IMG/VR virus record: IMGVR_UViG_3300035703_000010
Coordinates: 124,001-188,000 of that record
From: a virus
Strand: one strand, 5' to 3'
Length of the DNA: 64,000 nt
Shown here: piece after piece, positions 4,744 through 36,483 of the stretch
Layout: each line of letters starts with the position of its first letter
Numbering within the stretch: the stretch's first letter is position 1
Program-made: the position numbers and the translations under genes
Notes under the pieces: model-generated
The model's database searches: none
Seen by the model: the letters and a program-made list of their open reading frames with translations, nothing else
Told to the model about the DNA's origin: nothing

Positions 4744-5934
4744 ATGGATGTCGTTATAGGATCATCATTACTTGGATCTAAAAAGAGTTTGTTGACTTCT
4801 GATGAAGGATTCACGTGGATCGATAAAGAAAAAAACGATACGTGGTTCTTGTCAGGCGAGTTGAAGCAAAGTTTTGGGTTTTGTCTTGACACGGTCTTCA
4901 AATTAGAAAGCTTGCCTCCTGTTCCATCTGTTCATGAAAAATATAAGAAATCGATGTCATTATTGATGAAAGGTTCTCCTCCGTGGTCGATGATTCTTCC
5001 AAAGGATGAATACAGGCATTTCTTTAATGACGTTATGTCGTATGTAAAGACACATGAAAACGTTTCGAAAGATTATTATAAGAATTCCTGGGTACCTGGA
5101 AATGCTGTTTTAAATTTGATTAAGCCTGCCAAAACAGACGCTAATAAGATTAATGACATCATTCAAGCTTCTGCGGTAAACTCTCAAGTTGTAGAATCTT
5201 TTCGCCCAAGGTCAGGAGGGTATGCATCACCTATCGTTTATGATCGATTTGGAACTGTTACAGGTCGTCTTGTTGCATCTTCTGGACCAAACATTCTATT
5301 GTTAAAAAAAGATTACCGACAGATACTAAAGCCATCTCATCCTGATGGCAGGATAGTATCACTTGATTTTTCGTCTTTGGAAGCTAGAATTTTGTTGTAT
5401 GAATCAGGAAAAGATTGTTTAGAATTTGATCTATACGAGATGTTATCCAAAAGGTTTGGAGGTCTTCCAAGACAGATGGTGAAAGCTGCCGTATTGTCTG
5501 TGTTATACGGATCTTCAAAATCTTCTGTTGCTCTTCATTTAGGGGTATCAGAAGACAAGATAGCAAAGCTGATTCTTCAGATTGAAGAATACATCGATAC
5601 TCGTTCTCTTTTGAAGAGGCTAAAAAAAGAGCATAAAGAAACAGGGTACATCAAAAACAAATTTGGTAGAAAAATTCCTGTTGACCGTACACAGGACAAC
5701 ATATTCATCAATTACTATGCTCAAAGCACAGGAGTTGATGTTTCTTTGATGGGATTTTCAAAGATCATGGAAACTCTAGGGACGAATGGCGTAAGGCCAA
5801 TCTTCGTCCTTCATGATGCATTATTATTAGATGTCCATCCAGACAGACTACAAGATGTTTCAGACGTTCGTAATGTAAATGTCCTTGGATATGATCAGGC
5901 ATTTCCAGTAAAATTCGAAGAAATTTCAAGATAA
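4744..5934 (+). CDS. Compact family A DNA polymerase (polymerase domain only)
   Basis: A 396-residue DNA polymerase I-type palm/fingers module. Visible motifs are TGRL (174-177), motif A SLDFSSLEAR with catalytic D208, motif B RQMVKAAVLSVLYG (R243, K247, Y255-G256), a YAQSTGVD segment (325-332), and motif C H357-D358-A359. The usual motif C is HDE, so the Glu is replaced by Ala, while both metal-binding Asp residues are kept. There is no room for the 3'-5' or 5'-3' exonuclease domains; a separate 5'-3' exonuclease is encoded at 9560. A role in primer removal, gap filling or replication is inferred. The genome also encodes a PolIII alpha (26312-31206). Confidence 0.88.
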   Translation: MDVVIGSSLLGSKKSLLTSDEGFTWIDKEKNDTWFLSGELKQSFGFCLDTVFKLESLPPVPSVHEKYKKSMSLLMKGSPPWSMILPKDEYRHFFNDVMSYVKTHENVSKDYYKNSWVPGNAVLNLIKPAKTDANKINDIIQASAVNSQVVESFRPRSGGYASPIVYDRFGTVTGRLVASSGPNILLLKKDYRQILKPSHPDGRIVSLDFSSLEARILLYESGKDCLEFDLYEMLSKRFGGLPRQMVKAAVLSVLYGSSKSSVALHLGVSEDKIAKLILQIEEYIDTRSLLKRLKKEHKETGYIKNKFGRKIPVDRTQDNIFINYYAQSTGVDVSLMGFSKIMETLGTNGVRPIFVLHDALLLDVHPDRLQDVSDVRNVNVLGYDQAFPVKFEEISR

Positions 5935-23240: not shown

Positions 23241-24317
23241 ATGCAAAGAACTTTATGCTTTGATGATGTACTATTAGTCCCTCAATACTCTGAAATTGAA
23301 TCAAGAAAAAATGTTGATTTATCAGTTTCAGGGTTTGACGTTTCTGAAGCACAACTGACTACTTCTCATCCTGTTTTAAAGTGTCCAATTGTTGGATCTC
23401 CGATGGATACAGTTATCAGTCCTGCTGCAGCTGCAATTCTAGAAGACTTTGGAGGCTTTGGAGTTCTTCATCGGTACTGTACGATTCAGGAATCAGTTAA
23501 AATGTTTTTAGAAACTGTCAGCAAATGCCCTGGCAGTCAAACGCCTAATATCATGGTTGCTGTTGGAGCAACTGGCGATTATCTTGAAAGGGCCACTGCA
23601 TTATACGAAGCAGGTTGTCGAGCTTTTTGTATCGATGTAGCGCATGGTCATCATTCTTCTGTAAAGAATGCATTATCAGAAATGCGTTTAAAGTTTGCAA
23701 ATGAAGTTCACATCATGACAGGAAACGTTGCAACCCTTGAAGCGTTTAACGATTTAGCTGATTGGGGGTCAGATTCAATCCGCGTTGGCGTCGGAGGAGG
23801 TTCGATGTGTTCGACAAGAATCAGAACCGGTCATGGCGTTCCGACGTTACAATCTATTATGGATTGTGCAAAATCTGATAGAGATGTTTTTATCGTTGCT
23901 GATGGAGGAATTCGCAATTCTGGCGATGCTGTTAAGGCTCTTGCTGCAGGTGCTGATATGATTATGCTTGGTTCAGTACTAGCAGGTCATGATGAATCTC
24001 CTGGAGAATTGATCGATTCGCACGGATTATCTTATCAAAACAAGCCATTAGGAATTAGCCTATTTAAAAAATTCAGAGGAATGGCGTCAAGAGAAGCTCA
24101 AATTCAATGGAGAGGAAGAGTTTCAGTCGTCGAAGGTGAATCAACAACAATACCTTACAAAGGATCATTATCAAACACAATAACTGATCTATTAGAAGGT
24201 ATTAGATCTGGTCTTTCTTATTCTGGAGCTAGAACCATTAGAGAACTAAGAACCAGCGCTAGATTCATCACAGTGACAGCACAAGGGGTCCGAGAAAACG
24301 GACCCCATGGTAAATGA
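23241..24317 (+). CDS. IMP dehydrogenase / GMP reductase family enzyme
   Basis: A 358-residue TIM-barrel enzyme. It has TLCFDDVLLVPQYSEI at the N-terminus, SPMDTVI, the catalytic loop GGGSMCSTRIRTGHGVP with the active Cys, VADGGIRNSGDAVKALAAGADMIMLGS, and GMASREAQ. There are no CBS domains, as in GMP reductase and some compact IMPDHs; the end (ELRTSARFITVTAQGV) is closer to IMPDH. It would act in guanine nucleotide supply. IMPDH genes are known split-intein sites in related phages, but this one is intact. Confidence 0.85.
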   Translation: MQRTLCFDDVLLVPQYSEIESRKNVDLSVSGFDVSEAQLTTSHPVLKCPIVGSPMDTVISPAAAAILEDFGGFGVLHRYCTIQESVKMFLETVSKCPGSQTPNIMVAVGATGDYLERATALYEAGCRAFCIDVAHGHHSSVKNALSEMRLKFANEVHIMTGNVATLEAFNDLADWGSDSIRVGVGGGSMCSTRIRTGHGVPTLQSIMDCAKSDRDVFIVADGGIRNSGDAVKALAAGADMIMLGSVLAGHDESPGELIDSHGLSYQNKPLGISLFKKFRGMASREAQIQWRGRVSVVEGESTTIPYKGSLSNTITDLLEGIRSGLSYSGARTIRELRTSARFITVTAQGVRENGPHGK

Positions 24318-26311: not shown

Positions 26312-29005
26312 ATGACTACAAAAGTTCCTTCACGATTCGTAGGCCTTCACAGCCACTCGGGGTTTAGTACCTTTGATGGACTTGATTATCCGCAAGAACA
26401 CATCGATTACGTTCTAGAGAACGGTATGGATGCCTGGTCGTTGACTGACCATGGTCACATGAACGGATTCTGCCATGCATATCTTCATGCCGAGAAGATG
26501 AAAAAATCAGGTAAGAACTTCAAGTTCATTCCTGGCTGCGAGATGTACGTCCATCCTGATCTAAAACAATGGCAGATCGATCTCGATAAGTCGAGAGAAA
26601 AACCGATCAAGGACGAATCTATCCTCACACCCCTCGCTGCGATCGTTGACGGTAACGATGAAACGACTGACATCGGTACCGATGAAGCCGCATTGACCAT
26701 CGAAAACGAGGAGGAAACAAAATCAGGCAAGTACAACGACCCGATCAAACGTCGGCATCATCTCGTTGTCCTACCGAAAACATCAATTGGCCTACAAAGG
26801 TTATTCCATCTAGTTTCTCGAGGTTATTTGGAGGGCTTCTATAGGTTCCCACGAGTTGATTATGCGATGTTGAAGGAAGCCGCAAAGGGAGGTCATCTCA
26901 TGATTTCAACAGCATGCCTAGGTGGTGTGCTGAGCTATGACGTCTTCTCAAAGGTTCAACGCGTCAAGTTCGATGACCTATCACACAAACTTCTTGATGA
27001 TAGGAGCTTGCTTGAGTCAACCTTGCTTGAGATGGGTAACACATATGACAAATTGGTTAATGCTGTAGGACGAGACAATGTTTGCCTTGAGCTACAATTC
27101 AACAAACTTCCAGCCCAACATCTTGTTAACCGCGCAATTCTTGAATTTGCGAAGAAGAATTCATTGACTGATCGACTCGTTGTAACTTGCGATTCTCATT
27201 ATTCTCGTCCAGACAACTGGAAAGAGCGTGAGATCTACAAGAAGCTAGGATGGCTTAATTACCAAAACTTCGATCCGAACATGCTGCCGAAGTCGAAGGA
27301 CGATCTGAAGTGCGAGTTGTATCCAAAGAACGCACCTCAGGTCTGGGATTCCTACCTGTCCACGTCTGAAGACATGTCATTCTATGATGATGATGTTGTT
27401 CGTGAAGCAATCGAGCGGACTCATGACATCGTCCACAATGAAATCGGCGATATCCATCCTGATAAGGAGATGAAGCTACCATCCTACGTCATCCCTGAAG
27501 GATTCACTGAAGATAAAGCATTGGTCGATGCATGTAAGAAAGGTCTCATTTGGCGAGGGCTCGATGACAAGCCTGAGTACATCGAACGTATCAAGTATGA
27601 GCTATCGATCATCAAAGGTAAGAAGTTCTCACGCTACTTCTTGACGATGAAGGCGATCATGGATTTGGCACGAGAACATATGTTGATCGGGCCAGGTCGC
27701 GGATCTGCTGCAGGTTCTCTCGTTGCTTATGTTCTTGGTGTTACTAACCTTGACCCTATTGAATACGACTTATCATTTGAACGCTTCCTTAACCCATCTC
27801 GACAAGGCGCTCCTGATATCGATTCTGACATTGGAGATCGCGATAAACTAATCGAGCTCATGCGCGAAAACTTTGGTAATAACAATGTTATCCCAATTTC
27901 TAACTACAATACTTTTAAGTTAAAGAGCCTCATTAAAGACATCGCGCGGTTCTACAACATCCCATTTGAAGAAGTCAATGCAGCCTTAGCTCCCGTTGAA
28001 GATGACGTAAAGAAAGAGGTCTTTAAGCCAGGAGTTGATAAGAATCTTTTCGTCTTGACTTATGAAGATGCGATGAAGTATTCAAAGTCGATGCAAGACT
28101 TCGTCGCAGCGCATCCAGAGGTTGCAGAACCTATCGAGATCTTATTCAAACAAAACCGATCTCTCGGCCGACATGCGGGTGGCGTCATCGTGTCGGAGAA
28201 CGTTGCAGAGAGGATGCCTCTTATTCTTGCTCGTGGCGAACCTCAAACCCCATGGGTCGAAGGTATGCACTATAAACACCTAGAAGAGTTCGGCTGGATC
28301 AAATTCGATCTACTAGGTCTTGAAACCCTGCGCATTATCGAACGAGCTATCTACCTGATTCTGCAACGTCGAGAAGGTGTAGCAAATCCAACATTTAAGG
28401 ATGTGAAGGCTTGGTTCGACAAGCATATGGATCCTAAGAATATCGATCTCAATGATCAAAGGGTGTATGAATACGTTTATCATGAGGGACGATTTGCTGG
28501 TGTGTTCCAGTGTACGCAACCTGGTGCTCAACGATTGTTCACTAAGGCAAAGCCTCGCAGCATCATCGACATTGCAACTTTGACATCGATCTATCGTCCT
28601 GGTCCTCTAGCGGCCAATGTCGATAAGATCTATATCGGCGCCAAGAACGAACCTGATAAGATCGATTACCAGCACCCTTTGATCAAGAAGGTGCTTGAGT
28701 CTACATACGGATGTTTACATGGATCAACTGTTATTACAACTGATATTGGAGATATTACGATTGAAAAAATCGTAGAAGATCAGTTAGTCGGAACAAAATT
28801 GCCATCTTTTAACGAAGAATCTTGCGAGATTGAACAAGACGAAATTGTTGCTGCAGTTTGCACTGGCGTTCAAGAGACTCTAACGATTGAACTTGAAGAT
28901 GGAAAAACTATTCGTTTAACATCAGATCATAGAGTGTACACAACTAGAGGCTGGGTCGAGGCTGGAGATTTGACTGCAGAAGACGAAATTTTTGGAATTG
29001 AATAG
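26312..29005 (+). CDS. dnaE: DNA polymerase III alpha, N-terminal part fused to split-intein N-half
   Basis: An 897-residue protein. Residues 1-800 are the N-terminal two thirds of a bacterial replicative polymerase: a PHP domain (GLHSHSGFSTFDG, LTDHGHMNG), the palm with PGRGSAAGSLVAYVLG and catalytic D502-I-D504, and ending in LESTYG. Residue Cys801 starts intein block A (CLHGSTVITTDIGDITIEKI), with block B-like LTSDHRVYTTRGW near 887, then a stop. In intact DnaE the STYG segment continues into the motif xIxYQEQ, which here resumes in the gene at 29923. The half protein cannot be a complete polymerase by itself; trans-splicing is expected. Confidence 0.93.
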   Translation: MTTKVPSRFVGLHSHSGFSTFDGLDYPQEHIDYVLENGMDAWSLTDHGHMNGFCHAYLHAEKMKKSGKNFKFIPGCEMYVHPDLKQWQIDLDKSREKPIKDESILTPLAAIVDGNDETTDIGTDEAALTIENEEETKSGKYNDPIKRRHHLVVLPKTSIGLQRLFHLVSRGYLEGFYRFPRVDYAMLKEAAKGGHLMISTACLGGVLSYDVFSKVQRVKFDDLSHKLLDDRSLLESTLLEMGNTYDKLVNAVGRDNVCLELQFNKLPAQHLVNRAILEFAKKNSLTDRLVVTCDSHYSRPDNWKEREIYKKLGWLNYQNFDPNMLPKSKDDLKCELYPKNAPQVWDSYLSTSEDMSFYDDDVVREAIERTHDIVHNEIGDIHPDKEMKLPSYVIPEGFTEDKALVDACKKGLIWRGLDDKPEYIERIKYELSIIKGKKFSRYFLTMKAIMDLAREHMLIGPGRGSAAGSLVAYVLGVTNLDPIEYDLSFERFLNPSRQGAPDIDSDIGDRDKLIELMRENFGNNNVIPISNYNTFKLKSLIKDIARFYNIPFEEVNAALAPVEDDVKKEVFKPGVDKNLFVLTYEDAMKYSKSMQDFVAAHPEVAEPIEILFKQNRSLGRHAGGVIVSENVAERMPLILARGEPQTPWVEGMHYKHLEEFGWIKFDLLGLETLRIIERAIYLILQRREGVANPTFKDVKAWFDKHMDPKNIDLNDQRVYEYVYHEGRFAGVFQCTQPGAQRLFTKAKPRSIIDIATLTSIYRPGPLAANVDKIYIGAKNEPDKIDYQHPLIKKVLESTYGCLHGSTVITTDIGDITIEKIVEDQLVGTKLPSFNEESCEIEQDEIVAAVCTGVQETLTIELEDGKTIRLTSDHRVYTTRGWVEAGDLTAEDEIFGIE
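28712..29002 (+). other. Split intein, N-terminal half (IntN)
   Basis: Encodes 97 residues from the nucleophile Cys1 to the stop. Blocks A and B are visible; the block B region has TxxH-like TSDHRVY. It ends without a linker or endonuclease domain, as in naturally split inteins. Confidence 0.9.
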
Positions 29006-29048
29006 ACATATGGGTATATTTATCTTCCAAGAAAGAGGCTCTTGGAAG

Positions 29049-29954
29049 ATGAGAACTTGTGAATGTTGTGATAAAAAATTTGTTTATACAGGACCAAAAG
29101 GAAAAAATTATCCCGCAAAGACTTGCAGCGCAGAATGTTATAAGATATTAAGATCAAAAAAAATATCTCAATCAAACATCGATAGAAGGATACACGAAAA
29201 AGTAGAAAAGATTTGCGAAATTTGTGGTACGATAATCATAACAAATGATACAGAGAACCAACGCATAACTTGCTCTAAGAAATGTCATTCTAAGAGATTA
29301 TCGAAATTATACGCAGGAAGAAAAATAACTGAAGAGTGGCGACAAAATCAGAATAAGTCAAAGACTAAAGACAAAATTGTAAAGCATGGAGATTTTTCAT
29401 GTGATAAATGTCAAAAACATTTTGATACCAACACTTCGCTTAGATCTCATAGATCATATTGTACTCCTGGAAATGAAGGTCATATTTGTTGCGAAATATG
29501 CAATAAGAGTTTTTCTACGCGAGGGTACAAGATCCATTTTAAGAGTCATGATTTAATATGGAGATCGAAGACTACAAGTTCTCTTCAAAAATCTCTACTA
29601 ACAAGAACGAAATGTCAGACTACCTCTAAATCAGAGTTAGAATTTTTTGAAAAATTAAAGTCTTTGTTGGGTGATGATGTTGTACACAAGTTTAAAATTG
29701 AAGGAATTACTCATGAATATGATTTTTTTGTTCCTTCAAAAAATGTTATCATAGAGTTTGATGGTGATTATTGGCATGGCAATAAGAAGCTATACGAGTT
29801 ATCTTCTAGAATGAAACGTCAATATCAGATTGATAAAGTGTGGAATGAAAAAGCAATAGCTGCTGGGTATAGAATAATAAGAGTTTGGGCATCAGAGTCA
29901 AAAGATTTTAAGTTGGAAAATTATGTTAACACCCTTGAAAATAAAGTCGATTAA
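29049..29954 (+). CDS. Vsr-like homing endonuclease with zinc-finger motifs, between intein halves
   Basis: About 301 residues. The ATG at 29049 follows AAAGAGG (29032-29038). The N-terminal half has four Cys-pair zinc modules (CECCDKKF, ICEICG, SCDKCQKHF with a C2H2-like end, ICCEICNKSF). The C-terminal domain (about 190-301) has ITHEYDFFVPSKNVIIEFDGDYWHGN and RIIRVWASE, the catalytic pattern of the Vsr-like PD-(D/E)XK fold used by EDxHD homing endonucleases of fractured genes. It should cut intein-less dnaE alleles to spread the cassette. An ATG at 28992 inside the IntN end is the alternative start. Confidence 0.88.
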   Translation: MRTCECCDKKFVYTGPKGKNYPAKTCSAECYKILRSKKISQSNIDRRIHEKVEKICEICGTIIITNDTENQRITCSKKCHSKRLSKLYAGRKITEEWRQNQNKSKTKDKIVKHGDFSCDKCQKHFDTNTSLRSHRSYCTPGNEGHICCEICNKSFSTRGYKIHFKSHDLIWRSKTTSSLQKSLLTRTKCQTTSKSELEFFEKLKSLLGDDVVHKFKIEGITHEYDFFVPSKNVIIEFDGDYWHGNKKLYELSSRMKRQYQIDKVWNEKAIAAGYRIIRVWASESKDFKLENYVNTLENKVD

Positions 29955-30036
29955 ACGTGACGTACCTGCAAAAGTTTATGATATTCAAACCAAGAAAAAT
30001 CATAACTTCATTGCAAATGGCTTCTTAGTTCATAAT
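29923..30036 (+). other. Split intein, C-terminal half (IntC)
   Basis: Encodes up to 38 residues. Block F (VYDIQTKKNHNFIANG) and block G (FLVHN followed by Cys+1) are complete, so the residues needed for splicing are present. Confidence 0.9.
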
Positions 30037-31206
30037 TGCATAATTTTTCAAGAGCAAACTATGAAGTTATGTTCTGTCGTTGCTGGGTTCCCGGAGGCTG
30101 AAACTGACACGATTCGTAGAAACATCATGAAGCGTTCTGCGTCTAAAAAGGATGCAGCTGCTGCAGACGCGAAGAAGGCAAAAGAAGACTTCGTCGCCGG
30201 AGCGATGAAGAACGGTGTGCCTGAAAAGGTGGCTGATGAACTATACGAGAAGATTCTCTTCTTCTCTGGCTACGGCTTTAACGCTTCTCACGCAGTGTCT
30301 TACGCAATTGATTCATATTACTGTGCCTGGCTTCTCACCTACTTTGAGGAGGAATGGCTATGCGCTTACCTCGAGTCGATGTCAGGAAATGATGAAAAGC
30401 GTGCTAAGGCATTCTCTGAAGTCAAGGCATTAGGTTACAAGATCGTCAACATCGACATCAACTATGCAACGAAGAGCTGGACGATCCTGGATGGTAAACG
30501 ATTCATGCCTAGCTTCCTTTCATGTAAGGGTGTAGGGGAATCCGCAGTAGAAGAAATCATGGAAAATCGTCCGTATAAATCAGTGGAAGATATGTTATGG
30601 AATGAGGATGGGTCATGGAGGCATTCCAAGTTCAATAAACGTGCCTTGGAGGCCCTCATTGCAATTAAGGCATTTGATTCTCTTGATTGTATCGGTCATG
30701 ATAGGACTTTCACCGGATACAAACACATGAGTGAGATCTTGATCAACAGAAACGGCGATATCAAGAAACATACAAAGAAGAATCCGACTGCAGGAATCGA
30801 AGCATTCCGTGAAGCTTTGATCGATACGAAGAACATGGATGAATGGTCCAGATCAGAATTGGTAGATAACAGCATAAAGTATCTCGGTTCATTCAACGCT
30901 GCGATGCTGATGCCAGAAGAGATCTTACAAAAGCTTGAGAGCAGAGGAGTCAAGTCTGTTGATGATTTATCTGAAAGCGACATCTATTGGTTTATCGTTT
31001 CTGATACAAAGCCTAAGAAAACGAAGACAGGAAAAAACTATTTGTTGTTAACGATTACTGGGCTTGGAGGACAAAACCATAGGTTGTTCTGTTGGGGATG
31101 GAATGGCGAAACAGAAATTCCCAAGTACAGCGTTTGCCTTTCAGAAATCACCGTAGATGGCTACGGTAATAAAACTTTCATGAGTAAGATTAAAGTCCTT
31201 GATTGA
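29923..31206 (+). CDS. dnaE: Split-intein C-half fused to C-terminal part of DNA polymerase III alpha
   Basis: A 427-residue protein. Residues 1-38 are IntC: KVYDIQTKKNHNFIANGFLVHN (blocks F and G), ending His-Asn before Cys39 (+1). Then the extein resumes with CIIFQEQTMKLCSVVAGFP, GYGFNASHAVSYA and further fingers/OB-fold regions up to the end. The start may be ATG 29923 or TTG 29935; both overlap the endonuclease gene end. Spliced to residues 1-800 of the upstream product, this gives about 1189 residues, a normal alpha-subunit length. Confidence 0.92.
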   Translation: MLTPLKIKSIKRDVPAKVYDIQTKKNHNFIANGFLVHNCIIFQEQTMKLCSVVAGFPEAETDTIRRNIMKRSASKKDAAAADAKKAKEDFVAGAMKNGVPEKVADELYEKILFFSGYGFNASHAVSYAIDSYYCAWLLTYFEEEWLCAYLESMSGNDEKRAKAFSEVKALGYKIVNIDINYATKSWTILDGKRFMPSFLSCKGVGESAVEEIMENRPYKSVEDMLWNEDGSWRHSKFNKRALEALIAIKAFDSLDCIGHDRTFTGYKHMSEILINRNGDIKKHTKKNPTAGIEAFREALIDTKNMDEWSRSELVDNSIKYLGSFNAAMLMPEEILQKLESRGVKSVDDLSESDIYWFIVSDTKPKKTKTGKNYLLLTITGLGGQNHRLFCWGWNGETEIPKYSVCLSEITVDGYGNKTFMSKIKVLD

Positions 31207-31743: not shown

Positions 31744-32769
31744 ATGAAACTAGGAATCAGTTATTGGGGATTTTGTGAGCCATTTGAAGCATCTAAAGAG
31801 GCAAAGACTCCTGATGGTCATCGTTACGGTCGGCCTATCATGGTAGATGCCTTACTTAATCAAGGGCATGAAGTGTATGCGCTGCAGGAAAGAAGAGAAT
31901 CTACTCCATATCCTGGAATCACATATGACATGGGATTTCCTGATATTGACGTTCTATTTGTAGAATGGCGTTGGAAGACATACAAGAATTCTGGACCAAA
32001 CAAGTTTGAAAAAGATTTGGACAGACAGTTTGAACTATTGACTCATTATCATGGAAAGATTCCTGTCGTTATTTGGGATTGTGATTATAAAGTCACACAC
32101 TTAGATGAAATGATGTGGCCTGAAGCGATTATCGCAGATCCAGCTTTTGAGCCCAGGTATCTTACAAGAAAACGAGAAAGAATAATGTTCTGGACGGATT
32201 GGAAAAAGCTTCTTCCAGCTGTTTCTACATCATTTGAATATGGGTATGTAGGAAATAACTATGAGCGTCCTCAAGCTTTTGAAAAGTATTATTCTTTTCC
32301 GTCGTCGACTCTTCGCAATTATGGAATTCAAACGACAGTTCATGGAAATTGGTTGGAAGTTTCACCAGAAAGAGAATCTCCGAAAGTATTGATTTCTTCT
32401 CACCCTAGTATTTCATTTGCTCAAAGATTGAATTTCTATGAATCGATGAAGAGATTAAACTCATTTATTTGTACGACACATATTACAAAACCAGAATATG
32501 CTCAAAGAGGTTTTGCTTCTCCTAGATATGTTGAGAATATCGTTTCGAACGTGCCAGCTTTGGTTCCAAAAGAATTTTTGAAGTCGAATCTATTAGGGAA
32601 AGACTGGGCAGTTGAAGGTGGAGATTCTGTCATTGAAAAAGTCAAATTAATTTTTTCAATGAATTTAGAAGAAAGAAATTCGTTAATTTTAGAACAGGAA
32701 AATAATTTAAAATCTAGCGGTGTATTTTCAGTAAGTAATGTTGTAGATTTTCTTGAGTCGGTTAAGTGA
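31744..32769 (+). CDS. GT-B-type glycosyltransferase-like protein
   Basis: A 341-residue protein. It has a Rossmann-like N-terminal half (KLGISYWGFCEPFE, ALLNQGHEVYALQ, IDVLFVEWRW) and a C-terminal half with ISFAQRLNFYESMKRLNSF and a segment on FASPRYVENI, resembling glycosyltransferases of the CgeB/GT4 type that end in a conserved His/Arg/Glu region. It lies immediately before a sugar epimerase gene. It may glycosylate DNA, a virion protein or a host surface. The call rests on fold-like pattern, not on a decisive motif. Confidence 0.5.
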   Translation: MKLGISYWGFCEPFEASKEAKTPDGHRYGRPIMVDALLNQGHEVYALQERRESTPYPGITYDMGFPDIDVLFVEWRWKTYKNSGPNKFEKDLDRQFELLTHYHGKIPVVIWDCDYKVTHLDEMMWPEAIIADPAFEPRYLTRKRERIMFWTDWKKLLPAVSTSFEYGYVGNNYERPQAFEKYYSFPSSTLRNYGIQTTVHGNWLEVSPERESPKVLISSHPSISFAQRLNFYESMKRLNSFICTTHITKPEYAQRGFASPRYVENIVSNVPALVPKEFLKSNLLGKDWAVEGGDSVIEKVKLIFSMNLEERNSLILEQENNLKSSGVFSVSNVVDFLESVK

Positions 32770-32776
32770 GGAAAAA

Positions 32777-33772
32777 ATGAAAGTATTAATTACAGGTATT
32801 GCTGGTCTTCTTGGTGCAAACTTTTCTCGTTATTTGCTTGATAAAGGCTATAAAGTAGTTGGAATCGATGATTTAAGCGGCGGGTATGAAGATTCAGTAC
32901 CAAAGGATGCTACTTTTTATAAGCTTGACTTGACCGACCAAAAGAAGGTTGACGAGATTTTTAACGCAGAAAAGCCTGATTACGTTTTTCATTTTGCAGC
33001 ATATGCAGCTGAAGGTCTTAGTCCATTCATAAGAAATTACAATTACACAAATAATGTATTAGCTTCAACCAATGTAATCAACGCTTGCGTAAATCATGAT
33101 GTAAAGAAAATCATCTTTACGTCGTCAATGGCTGTTTATGGAGTAGGAAATCCTCCATTTACCGAAGAGCAACTACCAACGCCTGAAGATCCATATGGTA
33201 TTGCAAAATATGCAGTTGAAATGGATCTGAAGTTGGCTCATGAAATGTTTGGTCTTCGATACAGCATTGTTCGACCGCACAATGTAGTTGGAATCTACCA
33301 GAACATTTGGGATCGTTATCGCAACGTAATTGGAATTTGGATTCGAAAAGCAATGAATGGCGAACCACTTTCGATTTTTGGAGATGGTACACAAGTTCGA
33401 GCATTTTCAGACATTAAGTTTTATTTGGAACCATTTGAAAAATTAATGGATTCTTACGATGGAGAAATCTTCAACATCGGTGCTGACAAACATTACACAA
33501 TTAATGAAGCTGCAGACACAGTAATCGGCGTTGCAAAAGAGCTAGGAATTAACGCAACTAAAGTTCATCTAGAAAAGAGGAATGAAGTTCATACAGCATA
33601 TTGTGATCATACTAAGGCTCATAAGCTCTTGTCTTTTGAGGACAAAACAGATTTGCGAGAAACCGTTATGAAGATGTTTAAGTGGGCCATGGAACAGCCA
33701 AATCGTCCTACAAAGAGCATGAACTATGAAATTGAAAAGAACATGTATTCTTTTTGGAAGAACACAAAATGA
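32777..33772 (+). CDS. NAD-dependent nucleotide-sugar epimerase/dehydratase
   Basis: A 331-residue extended SDR protein. It shows the glycine motif TGIAGLLGAN, VVGIDDLSGG, FHFAAYAAEG, the catalytic SSMAVYG with Ser, and YGIAKYAVE with the YxxxK pair. This fits UDP-glucose/UDP-galactose 4-epimerase-type enzymes. GAGG at 32767-32771 selects the ATG at 32777. A second SDR of the same class is encoded at 35515. Confidence 0.88.
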   Translation: MKVLITGIAGLLGANFSRYLLDKGYKVVGIDDLSGGYEDSVPKDATFYKLDLTDQKKVDEIFNAEKPDYVFHFAAYAAEGLSPFIRNYNYTNNVLASTNVINACVNHDVKKIIFTSSMAVYGVGNPPFTEEQLPTPEDPYGIAKYAVEMDLKLAHEMFGLRYSIVRPHNVVGIYQNIWDRYRNVIGIWIRKAMNGEPLSIFGDGTQVRAFSDIKFYLEPFEKLMDSYDGEIFNIGADKHYTINEAADTVIGVAKELGINATKVHLEKRNEVHTAYCDHTKAHKLLSFEDKTDLRETVMKMFKWAMEQPNRPTKSMNYEIEKNMYSFWKNTK

Positions 33773-35514: not shown

Positions 35515-36483
35515 ATGAAAACCAAGAAAGCACTATTAACAGGCGCAGCTGGATTTATTGGAAGCAACTTGGCAAAAGAACTTTTGTCTAAAGGCGTAGA
35601 CTTAGATGTTGTTGATGATCTTTCAAGCGGTCATGTAGAGTTTTTACCTCAGCAGCTTCAAGAAACGTTAATAAAAGAGGATTTTTCATCACAAAATGTT
35701 TTAGATTTGATTAAAAACAAAAAATATGATGCTGTTTTTCACATTGCAGCAATTCCTCGAGTCAGCTATTCTGTAGATTTTCCAGTACAAACAAATGACA
35801 ATAACGTATCTAAGACCCTGTCATTAATTGATGCTTGTAGAGGTAATGTAGGAAGATTTGTTTTTGCTTCTTCATCATCAGTGTACGGCGATACGAATAT
35901 TTTACCAACTCCTGTTACATGTGAAAAAAATCCTAAATCTCCATATGCATTACAAAAATCTATCATAGAAGATTATTTGAAAATTTATTACAATTTGTAT
36001 GGATTGGACTCTGCTTGCTTAAGGTTTTTTAACGTATTCGGTCCTCATCAGCTTGGAAATTCTCCGTATTCTACTGCTTTAGGGGCTTGGTTGACTGCAA
36101 TCCATTCTGGAAATCAAATGCGATCTGATGGAGACGGATCACAATCCAGAGATTTATGTTATGTTGATAACGTTGTTGACGTTTGTATAAGAGCAGCAGA
36201 GTCCCAACAAGAATTAAAAGCCGTTAAATTAAACGTAGCTTGCGGAGTAAGAACTACGAATAAAGAAATTCTTTCTTACCTTTTATCCAAATATCCAAAT
36301 GCAAAATATTATGATGCACCATGGAGACCAGGTGACGTAATGCATACATTAGCTGATATTTCTATGACAAAGGAAGTTTTAGGTTATGAGCCTTTAGTCC
36401 TTCCTTGGGAAGGGATTGATAAAACCATTAAATGGTATGATGAAAATTGGGATATGATTAAAACTCTAGGTCTTTCAAAATGA
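35515..36483 (+). CDS. NAD-dependent epimerase/dehydratase (second copy)
   Basis: A 322-residue extended SDR protein with TGAAGFIGSN, VVDDLSSGH, FHIAAIPRV, ASSSSVYGD and PYALQKSIIED (YxxxK), plus FFNVFGPHQ. It is close to UDP-glucose 4-epimerases or related dehydratases. Its stop overlaps the start of the ThyA-family gene, tying it to nucleotide metabolism or to making a sugar donor for modified bases. Confidence 0.88.
   Translation: MKTKKALLTGAAGFIGSNLAKELLSKGVDLDVVDDLSSGHVEFLPQQLQETLIKEDFSSQNVLDLIKNKKYDAVFHIAAIPRVSYSVDFPVQTNDNNVSKTLSLIDACRGNVGRFVFASSSSVYGDTNILPTPVTCEKNPKSPYALQKSIIEDYLKIYYNLYGLDSACLRFFNVFGPHQLGNSPYSTALGAWLTAIHSGNQMRSDGDGSQSRDLCYVDNVVDVCIRAAESQQELKAVKLNVACGVRTTNKEILSYLLSKYPNAKYYDAPWRPGDVMHTLADISMTKEVLGYEPLVLPWEGIDKTIKWYDENWDMIKTLGLSK

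Follow-up and report, generated by a model that had tools for sequence, protein, structure and literature searches.

A phage DNA polymerase III alpha gene apparently fractured by a mobile split intein with a Vsr-like nuclease gene, in a clade of dnaE genes with serial split inteins

Fractured genes are reportedly found mainly in phages: Dassa et al. are said to have described in 2009 (NAR 37:2560) conserved enzyme genes interrupted by a split intein, their halves separated by a free-standing nuclease gene that is often related to Vsr, and control elements reportedly arrive with the nuclease gene. The family B DNA polymerase (PolB) of the jumbo phage MIJ3 is split by an intein with an HNH nuclease gene between its halves (PMC6892783), and the PolB1 proteins of Aes123 and CP21 have split inteins that are cysteine-less (PMC12707363). 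Essential genes of crAss-like and Jug phages lie in several pieces, mostly because of group I introns or nuclease insertions (PMC7886860, PMC12363816). Here we analyse dnaE, the gene for the DNA polymerase III (Pol III) alpha subunit, in a window of 64,000 nucleotides (positions 124,001 to 188,000) from the 204,651-base virus contig IMGVR_UViG_3300035703_000010; positions below are those of the window. Every defining feature of a fractured gene that can be tested from sequence was found at this locus, supporting the reading that the window dnaE is fractured by a trans-acting split intein accompanied by a Vsr-like homing endonuclease gene.

The locus consists of three open reading frames (ORFs), all on the + strand and, according to the ORF list, in three different frames, so that dnaE is not a single ORF broken by one stop. 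Its parts are the following.

26312-29005, + strand: dnaE-N ORF with the N-terminal intein half (IntN), 897 aa.
26312-28711, + strand: dnaE-N, the N-extein (residues 1-800), comprising PHP, the Pol III alpha core and the beginning of the fingers; PF02811, PF07733 and PF17657 reach residue 801; phrog_405, E=7e-165.
28712-29002, + strand: IntN, 97 aa, with Cys1 (CLHGSTVITT) and block B (TSDH), matching TIGR01445; stop TAG at 29003-29005.
28992-29954, + strand: nuclease ORF in its longest reading, 320 aa from TTG.
29019-29053, + strand: hairpin of 12 bp (29019-29030 pairs with 29042-29053), its 3' arm containing the nuclease start codon.
29049-29954, + strand: nuclease gene, 301 aa from ATG 29049, with a Cys-rich N part, C2H2-like fingers and a Vsr-like nuclease domain.
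29394-29552, + strand: a pair of C2H2-like zinc-finger motifs, which likely bind DNA.
29649-29894, + strand: Vsr-like nuclease domain, HEYDFFVP...IIEFDGDYWHGN, with invariant residues; TIGR00632 E=1.1e-4 (below the curated cut-off); fold matches 1cw0, 3r3p and 1vsr.
29923-31206, + strand: dnaE-C ORF with the C-terminal intein half (IntC), 427 aa.
29923-30036, + strand: IntC, 38 aa, C-terminal HN, matching TIGR01443.
30037-31203, + strand: dnaE-C, C-extein residues 801-1189, starting CIIFQEQ (Cys+1) and aligned with E. coli alpha through the splice point; stop at 31204-31206.

Both intein halves score above the cut-offs of curated NCBIfam models. The match of TIGR01445 (intein_Nterm, E=4.3e-9) begins at residue 801, and that of TIGR01443 (intein_Cterm, E=3e-10) ends at the junction. 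On the N side (LESTYG/CLHGSTVITT...), Cys801 is Cys1 of IntN and the block-B His (TSDH) is present; both are kept in L003, a second carrier of the element. On the C side (...FIANGFLVHN/CIIFQEQ), IntC ends in LVHN, its His-Asn being followed by Cys+1. Among solved inteins, the closest are the Spl DnaX mini-intein, at E=1.5e-14, and NrdJ-1, a split intein, at E=6.5e-14. IntN and IntC lie on separate ORFs with the free-standing nuclease gene between them, the end of the nuclease ORF overlapping the start of IntC by 32 bases, and the extein halves complete one conserved enzyme of 800 + 389 = 1189 residues; uninterrupted relatives have ~1190 aa. The spliced fingers segment can be aligned to E. coli Pol III alpha (LEPTYGIILYQEQ) through the junction (VLESTYG/CIIFQEQ and VLEPTYG/IILYQEQ). 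Counted from this alignment, the splice point falls approximately after E. coli alpha residue 682, within a strongly conserved fingers motif. No other intein, second copy of the element or nuclease of the same type was found elsewhere in the 204,651-base record, which holds one intein and one such nuclease only.

A sequence-only reading of the window had proposed much of this anatomy: an N-part of extein residues 1-800 ending in LESTYG and followed by Cys1 of a 97-residue IntN, a C-part opening with a 38-residue IntC that ends in HN before Cys+1 and an extein resuming with IIFQEQ, a joined alpha subunit of about 1189 residues, and a sense-strand gene between the halves encoding zinc fingers and a Vsr-like nuclease. 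The ORF coordinates, the two intein models, the alignment with E. coli alpha, the C2H2-like motifs and the predicted nuclease fold bear it out, with the nuclease start refined. Inspection of the junction residues, which that reading had set as a test, found Cys1, the block-B His, HN and Cys+1 all present. Its interpretation as a fractured gene is strengthened by the curated models, the nearest solved inteins and the nuclease fold, and also by the recurrence, purifying selection and horizontal movement described below.

The most likely start of the nuclease gene is ATG 29049, giving 301 aa, because the frame is closed just upstream in L003, its closest homologue. The pattern H..D..P...EFDGDYWHGN of the nuclease domain is invariant in six homologues. 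A structure model built from six homologous sequences (predicted local distance difference test score, pLDDT, 72.8; predicted template modelling score, pTM, 0.36) gave as its best solved matches in Foldseek Vsr with DNA (1cw0, E=7.8e-4) and I-Bth0305I, a homing endonuclease (3r3p, E=1.1e-3), with 1vsr also among the fold matches. The protein is probably a homing endonuclease with a predicted Vsr-like (EDxHD) fold. No relatives of it were found in isolated phages by tblastn. The hairpin over its start codon is also present in L003, L019 and L021, and across these four sequences, window included, two pairs are changed on both sides. This is consistent with a possible role in translational control of the nuclease; four sequences being few, we put this role forward as an inference. 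Two other ideas about this region were rejected. GIFIFQER, readable upstream of the nuclease ATG, resembles the extein CIIFQEQ and was considered as an extein mimic (a captured target site), but the same hairpin DNA precedes the L019 nuclease at a different extein motif and the L003 frame is closed. A T4-like late promoter ahead of the nuclease gene was discarded, as neither TATAAATA nor words related to it show enrichment upstream of genes in the window.

The strongest evidence for a working mobile element, read from sequence comparison, is that it has moved horizontally and is kept functional. L003, a 9.8-kb contig, carries the same three-gene element at the same dnaE site. Between the window and L003, protein identity is 93% for IntN, 87% for the nuclease and 95% for IntC, compared with 81% and 72% for the exteins. 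At 4-fold degenerate sites, IntN is 47%, the nuclease 66% and IntC 42% (5/12) identical, while both exteins are 27% identical, which is saturation. The GC content at third codon positions is 24% for the nuclease and 22-32% for the element in the window, against 48% for the host gene. The nearest relatives of the window polymerase (L004, L002, L013) and of the L003 polymerase (L010, L012) have empty sites at this position; the sequence-only reading had proposed such a comparison with intein-less relatives, and it places empty-site neighbours near both carriers. A polymerase tree with the window and L003 as one clade was rejected (log-likelihood 364 lower, approximately unbiased test p=2e-5). 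Together, the greater likeness of the element than of the exteins, the empty-site relatives and the tree show that the element moved between the lineages after their divergence. The ratios of nonsynonymous to synonymous substitution rates (dN/dS) between the window and L003 were 0.03 for IntN, 0.07 for the nuclease and 0.04 for IntC; purifying selection thus maintains all three parts of the element.

We consider it very probable that a mobile split-intein element occupies the fingers domain of this phage Pol III alpha, that trans-splicing yields the 1189-residue polymerase and that the nuclease drives homing. In this scheme, dnaE-N, ending in IntN, and dnaE-C, starting with IntC, would be translated as separate precursors. 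IntN and IntC would then associate, fold and splice in trans, with a thioester at Cys801, transfer to Cys+1 and cyclisation of the Asn, to give one continuous polymerase. Because the element moved horizontally, we infer that the nuclease cuts the empty target site; it probably does so in the dnaE of a co-infecting phage, after which repair would copy the element in. The hairpin, in which the start codon of the nuclease is buried, may limit translation of the nuclease from read-through dnaE mRNA. Several points weigh against this account. The nuclease scores 22.5 bits against the curated vsr family TIGR00632, far below the cut-off of 97.85, so that it is a Vsr relative and not a Vsr repair enzyme, and its structure model is only of moderate confidence. 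The dN/dS values come from a single sequence pair with a dS near 1 that is itself uncertain, and no co-conversion tract was seen in the flanking exteins by eye, without a formal test.

An intein that no longer splices, with polymerase halves working by non-covalent association, appears improbable to us. Precedent is said to exist in the genes-in-pieces case of Aeh1 NrdA (Friedrich 2007), and two relatives in the clade, G001 and G002, have a break after ~692 with a truncated IntN-like tail that lacks Cys1 and a partner without IntC. Other jumbo phages are also reported to have a minimal Pol III alpha that is split but has no inteins (PMC7824862). At the window site, however, all splice residues are intact, the break lies inside a strongly conserved fingers motif, and the dN/dS of 0.03-0.04 for IntN and IntC is not expected of dead appendages. 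Selection on the nuclease, with its horizontal movement, likewise speaks against the idea that the split intein serves mainly as an assembly checkpoint for the polymerase, the nuclease being secondary or decaying. G001 fits that idea in retaining a split intein at the same site with a fragmentary nuclease remnant, but the intein is absent from most relatives, and we regard a checkpoint as unlikely.

The window derives from a metagenomic virus record, so that the halves might be joined in the real genome, as the sequence-only reading had considered, or the contig might be chimeric. Such an artefact is largely refuted and highly improbable: L003 has the same three-gene layout, G005 and G001 are broken at the same site, these separate contigs come from other samples, and selection acts on all three parts of the element. 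Phage polymerase genes often contain introns (PMC7886860), yet we give a group I or II intron next to no credence here, since no Rfam match was found in the window region at E<=1 and intein motifs run in frame from both exteins. We thus retain the trans-splicing, mobile split intein as our reading of the window locus.

The larger finding is the clade of dnaE genes to which the window belongs, in which a single gene has as many as six serial split inteins. Relatives were collected by scans of viral contigs, with nuclease, IntN and DnaE sequences as queries, and by a hidden Markov model (HMM) survey. After rough de-duplication, 68 of 90 loci have a single uninterrupted polymerase frame, some cut by contig ends. 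Split inteins occur across the clade at eight motifs and ten exact positions; compared with random positions, these sites lie preferentially in conserved motifs (p about 0.011). The sites, in window numbering, are as follows.

Site A, STA/C, ~201: split intein in L013.
Site B, GPGRG/S, 464: L019/G004, L022/G003, G001.
Site C, NPxR/S, 497: L002, L004-L009, G001.
Site C2, PDID/S or T, 504: G001, G002.
Site D, in QNRSLG, N/C, ~616: G003.
Site F, VFQ/C, 733: G004, G001.
Site G, YG/C, 800: window, L003, G005, G001; shifted downstream by one codon in G003 and by two codons in G002.
Site H, GFNK/S, ~883: G001, G003, G004, G009, G010, G011; G002 has just the N half.

The window nuclease type is found at G sites and at site F in G004, and other nuclease-like genes at other sites. 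L237 has contiguous inteins at sites A and B, G002 has one at B and L245 has one at C. Those of L237 and L245, at sites fractured in relatives, are possible ancestors of the split forms. L232, first listed as a broken dnaE, looks like a simple frameshift with no intein and was set aside. The two intein HMMs had no match in 80 dnaE loci from bacterial genome contigs (the best-matching set). A clade dnaE (L359, 49% identity) was observed on a low-coverage 4.5-kb contig labelled as a Flavobacteriales metagenome-assembled genome, probably phage DNA that was placed in a bacterial bin. The nuclease scan also returned many other viral loci (L031-L085) in which Vsr-like nuclease genes are flanked by IntN and IntC matches on different ORFs.

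Within this clade, the window represents a single-insertion state. The dnaE of G004 is divided into four chains (sites B, F and H) and that of G003 into five (B, D, G and H). In G001, a 309,433-base record, dnaE lies in eight ORFs over ~13.7 kb (L346 = G001:C1:73001-88800) with six split inteins. The order is residues 1-464, site B, to 497, site C, SGAPDID, site C2, 504-692, an unspliced break, to 733, site F, to 800, site G, to ~883, site H, to 1188. One chain thus adds seven extein residues only (SGAPDID), flanked by IntC and IntN; its PDID is part of the Pol III alpha catalytic aspartate motif. At the G site of G001, the split intein is kept and the nuclease is reduced to a fragment. No Rfam intron reached the gathering threshold in the G001 dnaE locus. 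The C2 intein of G001 and G002 (L346, L347) is split at an unusual position near its C-terminal end, IntN keeping block F and IntC having ~17-30 aa, for example MVVHSFLASNKSVVVHN. At the ~692 break, these two genomes have an intein-like tail without Cys1, a second half without IntC and, separating the halves, a large nuclease-like ORF; this is apparently a broken polymerase gene tolerated without splicing. The H-site N half in G002 has Ser as its first residue, and no dnaE piece C-terminal to site H was found in the 182,840-base G002 record (L347 = G002:C1:1-12600). On balance, we lean slightly towards a scheme in which the polymerases of this clade are put together from many chains, each translated separately, by several split inteins that act in series and are mutually orthogonal; in G001, this would involve eight chains, six split inteins, one unspliced break and a seven-residue chain with the catalytic PDID aspartates. 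Since they act in the same protein, the split inteins should be mutually orthogonal.

A replicative polymerase would be expected to be among the least break-tolerant proteins, yet in this clade mobile split inteins interrupt it at some eight conserved motifs. Sites that are empty, fractured or occupied by a contiguous intein coexist in the clade with nuclease-remnant states, making the path from contiguous to split intein directly testable. The clade also provides naturally occurring split inteins that could be put to use in multi-part protein ligation.

Other genes of the window include a 396-aa protein (4744-5934) matching the C-terminal part of phrog_17, a family of phage DNA polymerases; besides dnaE, a second polymerase-related gene may therefore be present in the genome. 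Near dnaE lies an uninterrupted IMPDH-like gene (23241-24317, phrog_9582 dehydrogenase); the IMPDH gene is fractured in other phages. Two nucleotide-sugar epimerases lying close together (32753-33772 and 35515-36483) belong to the same PHROG (540).

Compared with known systems, the fractured-gene kind is familiar, and the host gene, phage Pol III alpha, is apparently new. The sequence-only reading had likewise named no earlier description of such a phage dnaE. Fractured phage PolB is known, and our literature search, with most subscription papers outside it, found no fractured phage dnaE and no gene with several split inteins, so that the novelty is provisional. The locus shares with the fractured genes of Dassa et al. 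an enzyme gene split by an intein with a nuclease gene between the halves; it differs in its host gene, broken at YG/C, and in having relatives with up to six split inteins per gene. MIJ3 and Aes123/CP21 likewise have a phage replicative DNA polymerase split by an intein, but theirs is of family B, with an HNH nuclease in MIJ3 and cysteine-less inteins in Aes123/CP21. The window nuclease shares the predicted catalytic fold of I-Bth0305I and Vsr (3r3p, 1cw0), with a conserved EFDGDYWHGN motif, whereas it has zinc-finger-like regions, lies inside a split intein and shows ~15% identity. The crAss-like and Jug phages also have essential genes shattered by selfish elements, but not by serial split inteins in dnaE. 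The cyanobacterial split DnaE inteins (Ssp, Npu) share the host gene family and trans-splicing halves, the latter predicted here, but their halves are encoded at distant loci and their site is presumably near site H, at ~884. In contrast, the window insertion follows residue 800, and its halves are adjacent with a nuclease gene between them.

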